36,761 bases of DNA from Dehalococcoidia bacterium (GTDB lineage: Bacteria; Chloroflexota; Dehalococcoidia; GIF9; AB-539-J10). The translations under genes and the position numbers were made by a program. A model generated the notes under the pieces. It searched no databases, was not told the DNA's origin, and was given only the letters and a program-made list of their open reading frames with translations. This document shows, piece by piece, positions 578-29,979 of the stretch (positions within the stretch are counted from its first letter, which is position 1; every line of letters starts with the position of its first letter). The DNA lies in contig JAUVZB010000023.1 of the NCBI GenBank assembly GCA_030602785.1, positions 1-36,761 of the forward strand, in the 5' to 3' direction.

Positions 578-1369
578 CTACGCGTTGTCGCCGTTTTCCA
601 ACCGTTCAACCATGTACTTGAATGTTCCGGCAGGCGCCGCGAATTCGCACTCGTCTCCCGTCGTCTTTCCGAGGATAGCACGGCCCATGGGAGAGGAAGC
701 GGAGAGCCTCCCCTGGCTGGCGTTGGCCTCACTGCTGTCCACCAGCTTGTAGGTCAGTGCGGCGCCGCCGGCCATATCGGTCAAGAGAACGGTATCGCCC
801 AGGCTGATGCGGGTACTGACGCCTGCTTCGTCCACGACGGTTGCGCGCGCGAGAGTATCCTCCAGTTCCAAGATTTTGCCTTCGATAATGGATTTCTCCT
901 CGCGGGCAGCCTGCAAAGGAGCGTTCTCTCTGAAGTCCTTGTCTGCGGCAGCCGTGCGCATCTGCTCGGTAACGACAGTCCGCTGATTCAGTAGCTCCTC
1001 CAGTTGAGCCTGAAGGCTGTCGAGCCCTTCACGTGTGACCTGGATTGCCTCCGGCGCTGCCCCCGGGGCCCTGGACGGGTTGTTGGTGTCCTTGCGTGTC
1101 TTGACGCGGCTTGCAAGCCCGCGTGCCGTCAAACGCTTCTTGTAGGCGTAGCTGAAGAACCCCCTGAGAGCAGCGGATTGGCCTGGAACAAGGGTCTGGC
1201 AGTACGCGTCCACATCTCGCGGTCGGATTGTTCCCACCGGGCGGTGCCGCCCGTACCAGCGCGCGAACTTCTGCACCGCGGCTTCATGCGCAGAGCGCTT
1301 CGGGCTGTCCAGGCTGGCGAGAAATGCGACGGCAGCCATCTCGACACTGAAATCCTGTTGTTCAACCAT
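578..1369 (-). CDS. greA: GreA/GreB-family transcription factor with N-terminal recombinase-like domain
   Basis: A 263-residue protein. Residues about 109-180 are the GreA coiled coil; the tip keeps the acidic pair as D145 and E148 in KDFREN, which in GreA coordinates Mg2+ in the RNA polymerase secondary channel and stimulates transcript cleavage. Residues about 183-257 match the FKBP-like C-terminal domain (SSPMGRAILGK). Residues about 10-92 are extra: a helical block (FARWYG, DVDAY, AALRGFFSYA, KKRLT) resembling the SAM-like core-binding domain of tyrosine recombinases; no catalytic recombinase domain follows. Usual GreA is about 158 residues. The ATG at 1369 has an AGGAGG-type site just upstream, and the gene overlaps the end of speB by 8 nt, so the two are probably translationally coupled. 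The Gre assignment is firm; the role of the extra domain is unknown, DNA anchoring being the obvious guess. Confidence 0.88.
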   Translation of the reverse strand: MVEQQDFSVEMAAVAFLASLDSPKRSAHEAAVQKFARWYGRHRPVGTIRPRDVDAYCQTLVPGQSAALRGFFSYAYKKRLTARGLASRVKTRKDTNNPSRAPGAAPEAIQVTREGLDSLQAQLEELLNQRTVVTEQMRTAAADKDFRENAPLQAAREEKSIIEGKILELEDTLARATVVDEAGVSTRISLGDTVLLTDMAGGAALTYKLVDSSEANASQGRLSASSPMGRAILGKTTGDECEFAAPAGTFKYMVERLENGDNA

Positions 1370-2315
1370 GCTGTGTCGCCTCCTGTTCCGTGCTTCCGGC
1401 ACGGGCGGTGTTCGTTGGATTGCTGCCTGCGCCTTTCCAGATGTGCCCGATGAGCCTGTATACGAGCTTGGCAAGCATATAGGCTGACGGGGCCGCGCCG
1501 ACGGCTCTGGGACAGAACTCCACGACGTCGAATCCCACTATTGTCTTCTGCCCTGCAATCTCTCGCAGCACGAGCCAGACGTCATCCCACGTGAGACCGC
1601 CGGGCTCGGGGGTGCCGACCCACGGGAGTACGGCGCTGTCGAAGACATCGGCATCGATGGTGACGTATACGGTGTCTGTGAGGGCGGATGTCAGCTTGCC
1701 CAGCCAGGTGTCGGTGTCTTCCTTCGGCGGCCAGAACACGACGGGCAGGCTCTGTTCCTCAATGAGCTGTCGTTCTGCACTTGAGAGACTCCTCACGCCT
1801 GCCTGAGCTGCCGGGCACAGTTCGTGTATCCTGCGCATGACGGTTGCCTGGCTGAACCGTGCCCCGAGATAGCTGTCCCGCAGGTCCGCATGAGCATCGA
1901 GCTGCAGGACGGACAGCCCGGGGTGCCTCTCGAGGAGGGCCTGGACGGCTCCTATCGTTATGGTGTGTTCGCCGCCCAGCATGACAGGGACCTTGTCCCG
2001 GTCAAGCCAGCGGCCGATTTCGTCCTTGACGGCGGCAACCATGCGCTCGGGGCCACCGAGCTCGGGAGCGAGTTCGTCTACTGTGCAGATACCGGCGCGG
2101 GACACATCGGCATCGAGTTCGTGGTCGTACAGTTCCAACAACCGGGAACTCTCTATGATGCTGAACGGACCTTGACGAGTCCCGGGAAGCCATTCGGTAG
2201 TGGCCTCGTATGGCACGGGGATTACGACATAGCGAGACGCGGAGATATCAGTCGTGGACGAAGGAAGGCCGGCGAATGAGAAGCCCGACTGCGGAATGTC
2301 GCCTTCAGGACCCAT
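1362..2315 (-). CDS. speB: Agmatinase-family ureohydrolase
   Basis: A 317-residue protein of the arginase/agmatinase fold. Agmatinase converts agmatine to putrescine and urea using two Mn2+ ions. The metal ligands are all present: H117 (GGEH), D140, H142 and D144 (DAHAD), D221 and D223 (IDADVFD), plus the GTPEPGG segment and a glutamate in VVEFCP. Odd point: in the segment GARFSQATVMRR relatives usually read SHATVMRR; Q156 stands where the family has the catalytic proton-shuttle His (H141 of arginase I, H163 of E. coli SpeB). Activity may be low or the substrate different. It starts inside the end of speD (11-nt overlap), with no clear Shine-Dalgarno, so coupling from speD is likely; its own end overlaps the greA-like gene. 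Context supports polyamine synthesis. Confidence 0.85.
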   Translation of the reverse strand: MGPEGDIPQSGFSFAGLPSSTTDISASRYVVIPVPYEATTEWLPGTRQGPFSIIESSRLLELYDHELDADVSRAGICTVDELAPELGGPERMVAAVKDEIGRWLDRDKVPVMLGGEHTITIGAVQALLERHPGLSVLQLDAHADLRDSYLGARFSQATVMRRIHELCPAAQAGVRSLSSAERQLIEEQSLPVVFWPPKEDTDTWLGKLTSALTDTVYVTIDADVFDSAVLPWVGTPEPGGLTWDDVWLVLREIAGQKTIVGFDVVEFCPRAVGAAPSAYMLAKLVYRLIGHIWKGAGSNPTNTARAGSTEQEATQHG

Positions 2316-2703
2316 TGTACGTAAAAAGTGAGGGGTTCTTGCTGTCCGGGCTAGAACGCGACCACTCGCGCTCGGCGAGGGATACGCGCCACTGTGTCAG
2401 CCGGAAGCGCTTCCGCAGGTCCTCGGCCGCGACGCTGGTGTCGAAATCCTTGCACGAGAACACATCTATGTTCACGTAGGACCGCTCCACGAAAGTATGT
2501 ATTGCTATGTGACTCTCAGCGAGAAAGACGAACCCTGAAATGCCCCATTCCTCCGGCTCGCAGTCTGTGAACCGGATGATGTGCGGATCCGATATCCGTG
2601 TCATCCCGATCTTAGACGGATAGTCGGTCAGCAGCTCTCGAAGGAACTCCTCATTCTGGAGGAGGTCCTTGTTTTCCGAGTATCCATCCATCAACAGTTG
2701 CAT
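2305..2703 (-). CDS. speD: S-adenosylmethionine decarboxylase proenzyme
   Basis: A 132-residue small prokaryotic AdoMetDC (class 1b). The proenzyme cleaves itself between E63 and S64 in AESHIAIHT, turning Ser64 into the pyruvoyl group; H69 (processing) and C84 in VFSCKDFD (proton donor) are present. The product, decarboxylated AdoMet, donates aminopropyl groups for spermidine-type polyamines. Length is normal for the family. The gene lies 78 nt after thiC and overlaps speB by 11 nt, giving a speD-speB pair. No aminopropyltransferase (speE) is in the window. Confidence 0.93.
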   Translation of the reverse strand: MQLLMDGYSENKDLLQNEEFLRELLTDYPSKIGMTRISDPHIIRFTDCEPEEWGISGFVFLAESHIAIHTFVERSYVNIDVFSCKDFDTSVAAEDLRKRFRLTQWRVSLAEREWSRSSPDSKNPSLFTYNGS

Positions 2704-2781
2704 AGAGATTCCTCAATGGCATGAAGGTCAGTAGCTGTCGACGCATGCGGCATGCACGGGGCCGGTACGCCATCGACGACG

Positions 2782-4077
2782 CTACGGTTTGACAGAAACC
2801 CCTCCCAGGTATTGCTCGACAATTGCCATTGCACAGTACTTGCCGCACATGCTGCACGCGCGCTCGCTTGTAGGAGTCTTGGCGTGCCCCTTGCGTGAAA
2901 GCTCAGGCACCAGGGCAAGATCGGCTTGAGCGGCCCAGTCAAGGTCCTTTCGGGCTTTGGACATCTTCTTGTCCCACTCAAGAGCTCCGGGAACACCCTT
3001 GACTATGTCCGCTGCGTGGGCGGCAATCATGGACGCAATAACGCCGTCGCGAACATCGTCCTCGTCCGGGAGAGAAAGGTGTTCCGACGGAGTGACGTAG
3101 CAGAGGAAGTCCGCGCCTGCGCCCGCGGCTATTGCCCCACCGATAGCTCCCGTGATGTGATCATAGCCTGCGCCGATATCGGTCACCAGCGGCCCAAGGA
3201 CGTAGAACGGGGCACCCTGGCACAGCGTCTTCTGCATCTGCACGTTGGCCACAATCTGGTCCATCGGCACGTGGCCGGGCCCTTCCACAAACACCTGCAC
3301 ATCGGCGGCGCGTGCCCTCTGTACCAGCTCGCCGAGGACAATCAGTTCCTGGAACTGCGCCCTGTCGCTGGCATCCACAATAGAGCCGGGCCGTAACCCA
3401 TCTCCAAGGCTGAGTGCGAAATCGTAGGTTCGGGCGAGCTCGAGAAGTCGGTCGAAATACTCGTAGAAAGGGTTCTCGCGCTCATTGTGCAGGATCCACC
3501 CTGTGAGGAATGCTCCGCCACGCGAGACTATGTTGGTGAGTCGGCCCTGGCTTCGCAGGCGCTCGATTGCCGACGCGGTCACACCACAGTGGATGGTCAT
3601 GAAATCCACACCATCCTTTGCGTGTGCCTCCACCGCGCCGAACAGGTCATCCGGGGTCAGGCCCACAATGGAACCCTGGCTCTCGATTGCCTGAACAGTG
3701 GCCTGATAGATGGGTACTGTCCCAAATGGCACGGTGCATGCGGGAAGAAGCACACGGCGTATCGCACCGATGTCTCCACCCGTGCTCAAGTCCATCAGAG
3801 CGTCCGCGCCGCACTCCACTGCAACGTTCAACTTGCGTAGTTCGGTGTTGACATCGAAGGAGTCAGACGACGTACCGATGTTGGCGTTGACCTTCGTGCG
3901 AAGGCCCTTGCCTATACCGCGGGGTTGAAGTGAGTGGTGAAGTGGATTGGAAGGAATGACGATGGTGCCGTCGACAAGGCCGGACAGTACAGACTCTACA
4001 GTGACACCCTCCGCGCGAGCGACCTGTTCCGCCTCTGGCGTGGAGCTACCTTTTCTGGCACGTTCGATAAGAGTCAT
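2782..4077 (-). CDS. thiC: Phosphomethylpyrimidine synthase (short ThiC form)
   Basis: ThiC rearranges aminoimidazole ribotide to HMP-phosphate for the pyrimidine half of thiamine, using a [4Fe-4S] cluster and AdoMet. The protein is about 431 residues from the ATG at 4077 (MTLIERARKG); the open frame extends upstream, but this start fits the family and sits below a good promoter. Family blocks are clear (NANIGTSSD, DLSTGGD, TVPIYQA, MTIHCGVT, SRGGAF, EGPGHVPMDQI). The C-terminal cluster motif reads CSMCGKYC, i.e. C-x2-C-x3-C, one residue shorter than the CX2CX4C of E. coli ThiC. The N-terminal domain of the long bacterial form is missing. Related benzimidazole synthases (BzaF type) belong to the same superfamily, so a paralogous role cannot be excluded; ThiC is preferred because the family blocks fit throughout. 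Confidence 0.88.
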   Translation of the reverse strand: MTLIERARKGSSTPEAEQVARAEGVTVESVLSGLVDGTIVIPSNPLHHSLQPRGIGKGLRTKVNANIGTSSDSFDVNTELRKLNVAVECGADALMDLSTGGDIGAIRRVLLPACTVPFGTVPIYQATVQAIESQGSIVGLTPDDLFGAVEAHAKDGVDFMTIHCGVTASAIERLRSQGRLTNIVSRGGAFLTGWILHNERENPFYEYFDRLLELARTYDFALSLGDGLRPGSIVDASDRAQFQELIVLGELVQRARAADVQVFVEGPGHVPMDQIVANVQMQKTLCQGAPFYVLGPLVTDIGAGYDHITGAIGGAIAAGAGADFLCYVTPSEHLSLPDEDDVRDGVIASMIAAHAADIVKGVPGALEWDKKMSKARKDLDWAAQADLALVPELSRKGHAKTPTSERACSMCGKYCAMAIVEQYLGGVSVKP

Positions 4078-4126
4078 GCTAGTGGAATCGTGAAAAACCC
4101 GCGTCTCCCCACCGCCGCGACGGGAA

Positions 4127-4155
4127 AATCTAGCACACTGGCCGTACGAATGCAA
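4127..4155 (-). promoter_or_regulatory. Candidate promoter of thiC
   Basis: On the minus strand: TTGCAT (4155-4150), a 17-nt spacer, then TAGATT (4132-4127) preceded directly by TGC, an extended -10. It lies about 50 nt before the thiC start, inside the 106-nt gap after argS. No TPP riboswitch sequence fits between it and the gene. Confidence 0.55.
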
Positions 4156-29118: not shown

Positions 29119-29979
29119 CTACCGGCCAGCTCGCAACGCACGCGCACGCTGGAAGCCAATGAATGAATACGCTCCGGGGGCCACGCGCTCGATACACGCG
29201 AACGGCCGCATCTGTTCACCGGGGCGTCCAATGTCGGCATCGCGTAGTGTCAATTCAGTTTCCAGGGCTCCAGGCAAGTTGTAGGCTTCCGGCATGAGTT
29301 CGTCGCGCAGTATCTGAACTATGTCGTCCAGTCCGAACAGTTTGCGTCCTCTGGATGCCAGAACGAGACTCGCAATGTAGGGCCCCCACTGCCTGAAAGC
29401 GTAGGTCTCAGCGAAGGCGGCCTTTTCCTCCGGGTCTGTGATATGGGCATCTCCCAGCCTCTTCTTTGCCTGTGCCACGACATTCGGGCTTTCCGGTGGA
29501 GGGACGGCTGCGGCGCCGATGGGCACGGCCGCGGACGTCAGTTCATGGGACCCGTTTGGTCCCGAACCGTTGTCGCGCTCCTGTTCTGCGCCAATCTCCC
29601 TCAGACGTTCCATGACCCAGAGGCGAGCCAGCGTCTGGGGCGATTCATCAAGGTCCTTGGCCAGGCGCCGGAGTTGTTCCGCCCTTGTCACCGGTATCTC
29701 GATACGCAGGAGCACGGAATCCGGTCCTGCCGCAGCCCCGGCCTCGAAATCCCCATCGAGCCGGGAGTTCTTTGTCGAGTCTGCCTCGCCAGTCTTGCCC
29801 AGCATCCCGAGGACGCTCCTGAACATGTACTGGTCGACATCCGGTCCTCCCGGCGATTGCCCTCCAGGGGTTGGTCCCGGTCTGCCTCTCGGCCCCACAC
29901 GACCGTTGTCGAGGAACTCAGGCGGGAGGTCATATGGACCTCTCTGCGGCCTTCTCTTGCGTTGTCCTTTGCCAAACAT
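29119..29979 (-). CDS. Unknown protein with ribbon-helix-helix-like segment
   Basis: A 286-residue protein not recognised as a whole. Residues 1-48 are basic and rich in Gly and Pro (disordered). Residues about 86-130 (VLLRIEIPVTRAEQLRRLAKDL, then SPQTLARLWVMERLREI) look like a ribbon-helix-helix DNA-binding unit. A second linker (132-178) is low-complexity. Residues about 180-276 form a compact domain (FGLDDIVQILRDEL, IERVAPGAYSFIGF) that resembles a winged-helix in pattern only. It could be a DNA-binding regulator or nucleoid protein. GAGAGG lies about 11 nt before the ATG. Confidence 0.65.
   Translation of the reverse strand: MFGKGQRKRRPQRGPYDLPPEFLDNGRVGPRGRPGPTPGGQSPGGPDVDQYMFRSVLGMLGKTGEADSTKNSRLDGDFEAGAAAGPDSVLLRIEIPVTRAEQLRRLAKDLDESPQTLARLWVMERLREIGAEQERDNGSGPNGSHELTSAAVPIGAAAVPPPESPNVVAQAKKRLGDAHITDPEEKAAFAETYAFRQWGPYIASLVLASRGRKLFGLDDIVQILRDELMPEAYNLPGALETELTLRDADIGRPGEQMRPFACIERVAPGAYSFIGFQRARALRAGR

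Follow-up and report, generated by a model that had tools for sequence, protein, structure and literature searches.

The window, a 36,761-nucleotide stretch of DNA from a Dehalococcoidia bacterium, encodes a transcription factor of the GreA family in which the two GreA domains are preceded by a further domain, strongly supported by sequence comparison and structure prediction as the SAM-like core-binding (CB) type of Xer and phage integrases. Gre factors are usually small proteins, presumed to reach stalled polymerase by diffusion. Judged by the tip residues of its own copies and of stand-alone paralogs, the fusion looks like the working transcript-cleavage factor of its lineage, and we give an even chance to a reading in which this GreA-type cleavage factor uses the CB domain, fused to it through a flexible linker, to hold nucleic acid near stalled elongation complexes. 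The gene and its parts are as follows.

578–1369, reverse strand: fused greA gene (263 amino acids plus stop), the only GreA/GreB match in its own genome of 2.57 Mb
1379–1384, reverse strand: Shine-Dalgarno sequence AGGAGG, 9 bases ahead of the ATG at 1369, a kind of site common to close relatives
1094–1360, reverse strand: tyrosine-recombinase-type core-binding (SAM-like) domain, residues 4–92, assigned by AlphaFold and by structure and profile comparison
1046–1093, reverse strand: predicted flexible linker, residues 93–108
836–1045, reverse strand: GreA coiled-coil domain, residues 109–178 (GreA_GreB_N, PF03449, E 8.2e-17)
914–943, reverse strand: coiled-coil tip DKDFRENAPL, residues 143–152, with acids D145 and E148 in invariant columns
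602–814, reverse strand: GreA C-terminal FKBP-like domain, residues 186–256 (GreA_GreB, PF01272, E 6e-18)
1362–2315, reverse strand: upstream arginase/agmatinase-family gene (PF00491, E 7e-57)

The open reading frame, its frame and its coordinates stand as a sequence-only reading of this DNA had given them, with a single 263-residue reading followed by a stop codon. The same reading had considered that translation might begin at the GreA part. The AGGAGG site lies ahead of the upstream ATG, and the codons ATG, GTG and TTG are absent between residues 81 and 136, which leaves no start codon from which the GreA part alone could be translated. Over 26 close pairs, two of which duplicate others, dN/dS of the N-domain ranged from 0.006 to 0.50 (median 0.148), with a median of 0.124 for the GreA part. 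In a pair of probable Dehalococcoides copies, changes among the first 110 codons number 34 synonymous and 3 nonsynonymous, and among the remaining codons 37 and 13, respectively. These values indicate that the N-domain is under purifying selection and, together with the AGGAGG site, that it is translated. A chance extension or a mis-called start is ruled out by the ribosome-binding site, the lack of an internal start near the GreA part, the dN/dS values and the synonymous excess.

The same evidence makes it extremely improbable that the N-terminal stretch is an untranslated or decaying relic, a reading to which annotation lends some colour: the GreA annotation of D. mccartyi may begin inside the gene. 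For a GreA of D. mccartyi CBDB1, cbdbA743, acetylation of K17 has been reported (PMC7918482), which fits numbering from an internal methionine. In the probable Dehalococcoides copies (L131, L132), position 17 in full-length numbering holds no lysine, but position 17 does when counting starts at the internal methionine where the GreA part begins. If CBDB1 resembles these copies, its annotated greA start may be internal, and annotated greA starts in Dehalococcoides-type genomes are perhaps too far downstream.

By its domains and tip, the window protein is a member of the GreA family. Both Pfam matches pass their cut-offs (GreA_GreB_N, 61.6 versus 24.5 bits; GreA_GreB, 65 versus 26.9 bits), and in an end-to-end alignment of 56 full-length sequences the residues D143-K144-D145-F146 and E148-N149 are invariant; the full coiled coil with its D145/E148 tip (D145-F-R-E148) and the FKBP-like domain, first read from the letters, are thereby borne out. 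The window protein misses the cut-off of the NCBIfam greA model TIGR01462 (117.1 versus 139 bits), which a probable Dehalococcoides member passes at 143.9 bits. Both GreA domains and the D-x-x-E tip are held in common with bacterial GreA/GreB (PF03449 plus PF01272), and E. coli GreA (1grj) gives a Foldseek TM-score of 0.87 to our model by target length; unlike these proteins, the window protein adds about 105 N-terminal residues with a folded domain. GreA likewise lies at the C-terminus of the longer NCBIfam proteins PRK14720 (906 positions) and PRK06330 ('transcript cleavage factor/unknown domain fusion protein', 718 positions), but their extensions exceed 550 positions and the match here is confined to their GreA ends.

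AlphaFold predicted the full protein with a mean pLDDT of 88.2 and a pTM of 0.52, placing helices at residues 9–19, 22–39, 50–57 and 65–77, with block pLDDT values of 93–97 over residues 11–90; modelled alone, the N-domain reached a pLDDT of 76, lower than this stretch scores within the full-length prediction. The linker, which starts with the last residue of a conserved basic set, has a pLDDT of 52–66 (blocks 91–110) in the full model and below 50 at residues 93–101 in the N-domain-only model. The fold predicted for the N-domain alone matches recombinase core-binding domains: VIA-align returned 3nrw at Z 12.7 (rmsd 1.9, 89 residues), XerD 1a0p at Z 10.1 (rmsd 2.3, 82 residues) and the lambda Int CB domain 2oxo at Z 9.1, on a scale where unrelated helical bundles may reach about 13. 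Among the first 29 rows, 25 carry integrase or recombinase in their names, and the remaining four include MrpR and YopR, which are known to have the same fold. Since Foldseek E-values for the N-domain model are not significant alone (best 0.097) and unrelated bundles reach similar Z, the sequence evidence matters.

Profile-profile comparison with hhalign aligned 42 fusion N-domains with 22 Xer N-domains from Chloroflexota of the same class at a probability of 95% (E 4e-8, 103 columns). The reverse direction gave 94.9%, and fixing the match columns gave 92.9% (E 3.7e-7), while 30 column shuffles stayed at or below 2.2%, the reversed profile at 0.05% and the GreA coiled coil at 0.28%. An N-domain HMM run over 400 genomes matched GreA fusions strongly and other proteins more weakly; the four weaker matches that we examined (L134, L135, L149, L150) have no GreA, and two of them, L134 and L149, are tyrosine recombinases by Pfam (PF00589). 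A divergent fusion, L136, matches the NCBIfam XerD model TIGR02225 (E 1.7e-5, profile positions 25–96). Pfam integrase-SAM matches of the window protein itself fall under the cut-off (E 0.02–0.09; Phage_int_SAM, 15.7 versus 27 bits), and PF13495 picks up 8 of 42 family members with an E limit of 1 (best 0.00062). Together, the fold, the profile-profile alignment, the recovery of Xer proteins by the HMM and the XerD match of L136 uphold the assignment of the N-terminal ~95 residues to the SAM-like domain of Xer and phage integrases. The four-helix fold and its register are common to the fusion N-domain and the CB domains of XerC/XerD, lambda Int and phage integrases (PF02899, PF13495). Unlike in those proteins, no recombinase catalytic domain follows the CB domain, and W38 and G40 are fixed in place of the largely lost T-x-R-N-Y and R-K motifs of Xer; a Pfam search at E up to 10 found no PF00589 catalytic domain in the window protein, which on these grounds is no recombinase.

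The fusion is widespread. Among 61 genomes (the window's own and 60 relatives), 54 match the window protein, 51 of them with the full fusion, one with a fragment (G011) and two (G040, G047) with a stand-alone copy only; the seven without a match, which are 67–87% complete, have no PF03449 match either. In a wider survey of 400 Chloroflexota genomes with the N-domain profile (E up to 0.001), 132 genomes matched, including 52 of the 54 from the same class. The two exceptions are G234, which has a 138-residue Gre coiled coil, and G266, which has no convincing Gre. The G234 protein (L263, ~1258–1671) bears the tip GDLKENSGY, is without the GreA C-terminal domain, and has a cysteine-containing, possibly metal-binding stretch (CPGC...C) ahead of its coiled coil. 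Beyond the class, N-domain matches stronger than 1e-10 occur in 34 of 346 genomes; the nine of these that we examined (L126, L137, L142–L148) are all fusions, as is the weaker L136. The earlier suspicion that related Chloroflexota share the fusion thus proved right for nearly all of the class and for some members of other classes.

In a tree of the GreA domain (76 rows), a single branch with an SH-aLRT of 92 separates 56 fused from 20 stand-alone sequences. This separation fits a single fusion event and is not proof of one on an unrooted tree with many unsettled inner branches. The CB domain was probably joined to the N-terminus of GreA once, early in Chloroflexota, and then kept. A mobile-element origin of the fused gene was considered and rejected: no recombinase cluster is prominent in the neighbourhood of 92 loci (flanks of up to 3 kb). 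Of 69 matching plasmid records, the two examined (Tistrella H1, Tritonibacter H3) encode an ordinary GreA that has no N-domain, and a single peptide pattern run against viral contigs gave six matches, none of them a relative, which is a weak negative. We found no published description of a CB-GreA fusion in the open literature searched.

In the window, the arginase-family gene overlaps the start of fused greA by 8 bases, and the two are likely co-transcribed. Genes for ThiC, AdoMet decarboxylase and the arginase-family protein run upstream of fused greA on the reverse strand (1362–4155); among the 92 loci, a cluster of arginase-family and AdoMet-decarboxylase reading frames lies upstream in 21, and an oxidoreductase-like reading frame, named by eye, in 25. 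Further along the same strand, a DnaJ-domain protein (PF00226, 26639–27481) overlaps the longest reading of the next reading frame and continues after its DnaJ domain with three stretches that look related by eye (pattern ARQxVIDELxxDGL...LVxxAlexv). A thioredoxin (PF00085, 28316–29011, reverse strand) is extended at its N-terminus by about 115 residues that match no Pfam family themselves, and for a 286-residue reading frame (29119–29979, reverse strand) Pfam gave nothing up to E 0.1.

The fusion is often the sole Gre factor of its genome, and usually the only one with an intact tip. Among the 52 same-class genomes with the N-domain, 30 have one PF03449 match and 22 have two. Both D and E are present at the tip in all 144 fused copies, some genomes having been fetched twice. 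Stand-alone paralogs (L181–L190 and L201–L230; 38 from fusion-bearing genomes and two from G040 and G047, where no fusion was found) are acidic at both positions in only 7 of 40 (L189, L209, L220, L221, L223, L224, L230), with copies counted individually and kinship ignored, and in 2 of the 32 from the same class (L189, L223). In 15 fusion-free, multi-copy genomes of the phylum (two to three Gre copies each), both positions are acidic in all 30 copies read out of 32 matches, the other two having no locus. The ten stand-alone control copies L191–L200 come from among the best-scoring matches. The stand-alone tips, which include GGTENNAEY, LAGSEASGEY and QGSSQADAEY, differ from one another, which suggests several separate losses of the acids. 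The contrast between fused and stand-alone tips suggests that in these cells transcript cleavage is likely the work of the fusion. An acidic tip is no proof of cleavage: Gfh1 carries conserved acids there without being able to cleave (PMC4598747).

The stand-alone paralogs without tip acids are possible new Gfh1-like inhibitors. Gfh1 and archaeal TFS4 are paralogs of cleavage factors that inhibit RNA polymerase, which gives a precedent for such a protein as a second, non-cleaving channel binder; Gfh1 keeps its acidic tip residues, whereas most stand-alone tips here are not acidic at both positions.

Conserved charges bear on what the N-domain may bind. Nine of its columns are at least 80% basic (R25, K34, R37, R43, R69, K77, K90, R92, K93) and one is acidic, against seven and three in Xer N-domains and nine and eleven in the GreA part; K93, at the end of the basic set, aligns with a conserved basic residue of the Xer linker. 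Net charge of the N-domain averages a modest +2.5 (range −4 to +9), the window protein standing at +9. Compared with Xer N-domains, the fusion lacks six residues ahead of helix B and has not conserved the T-x-R-N-Y segment that follows them. Where the last helix begins, the two positions of the R-K pair are basic in 48% and 77% of the fusions that have it, and this stretch is deleted in the window's family. Both are canonical DNA-contact motifs of Xer N-domains. For a DNA-tethered Gre factor, as the sequence-only reading had proposed, the conserved basic residues thus speak in favour, and the loss of the Xer motifs and the modest mean charge against; the chances are about even that the N-domain is a re-tooled, probably non-specific nucleic-acid grip.

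The further proposal that the factor acts at upstream DNA finds no support here. Tethered to the coiled coil at its outer end, the domain would be placed by the rim of the secondary channel, on the downstream side, and the downstream duplex would be nearer to it than upstream DNA.

The main rival to a nucleic-acid grip is protein binding, in which the N-domain gave up DNA and docks onto RNA polymerase outside the secondary channel or onto a lineage-specific partner. In eukaryotic TFIIS, by analogy, the N-terminal helical domain is a protein-docking module, and the layout of domain plus linker suits such a role here. The Xer DNA-contact residues are mostly replaced, W38, G40 and Y56 are invariant across the 56 aligned sequences and R37 nearly so, and the basic residues could face acidic polymerase surfaces. 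Against docking, nine basic conserved columns to one acidic is a pattern typical of nucleic-acid binding, K93 matches its counterpart in the Xer linker, and gene context at the 92 loci (flanks of up to 3 kb) names no partner; we regard docking as somewhat unlikely.

Reading of a specific DNA sequence, which would steer cleavage to particular templates, has precedents in this fold. The N-terminal bundle of XerH works in the DNA major groove and reads sequence there (PMC5241119). MrpR (YopR), the SPbeta master repressor, is a recombinase-fold protein turned regulator (PMC10516654), and it aligns with our N-domain at a VIA-align Z of 6.4; the tyrosine-recombinase fold has likewise been reused there in transcription control, but MrpR keeps the entire two-domain fold and acts as a repressor, not as a polymerase cleavage factor. 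In the fusion, the DNA-contacting segments are those that changed most, a CB domain without the catalytic half leaves half of the clamp missing, and a sole Gre factor, as in 30 of the 52 genomes, is an unlikely specialist, all of which makes sequence-specific reading quite improbable.

Internal regulation of the GreA part, through autoinhibition or dimerisation, is marginally less improbable. Recombinase CB domains participate in subunit contacts. Gre-family factors also switch conformation, as Gfh1 does (PMC4598747). However, the model has no confident interdomain packing (its pTM is low despite its high pLDDT), and the linker is of low confidence.

Returning to the nucleic-acid grip, the mechanism would run as follows. 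By analogy with the GreA family, the coiled coil would enter the secondary channel of RNA polymerase, where D145 and E148 would help the polymerase cut backtracked RNA, while the CB domain, on its flexible linker, would stay outside the channel. With less certainty, the basic set from R25 to K93 may hold nucleic acid without sequence specificity, with duplex DNA close by as the likeliest target, and this grip may raise the residence or local concentration of the factor at stalled elongation complexes. Where a stand-alone paralog without the tip acids is present, it probably competes as a Gfh1-like secondary-channel binder. The fullest version, in which Chloroflexota set a DNA-tethered, cleavage-competent CB-Gre that rides DNA beside the elongating polymerase against a free, tip-less, Gfh1-like competitor, appears possible and rather doubtful to us, slightly ahead of docking. 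If true, backtrack rescue in these cells would use a factor built like eukaryotic TFIIS, with an N-terminal helical module, a linker and a cleavage finger.

Larger GreA fusions (PRK14720, PRK06330) are already known, as is, from MrpR (PMC10516654), the recombinase fold in transcription control. Our analysis indicates that a Gre factor with a recombinase-type domain is present across almost an entire class of bacteria, to which the cultivated dehalogenators among its carriers probably belong, and that the stand-alone Gre relatives of that class are mostly without the active-site acids. If the CB domain holds DNA, the fusion would be a natural experiment on what local tethering does to backtrack rescue and would parallel, in bacteria, the architecture of TFIIS.
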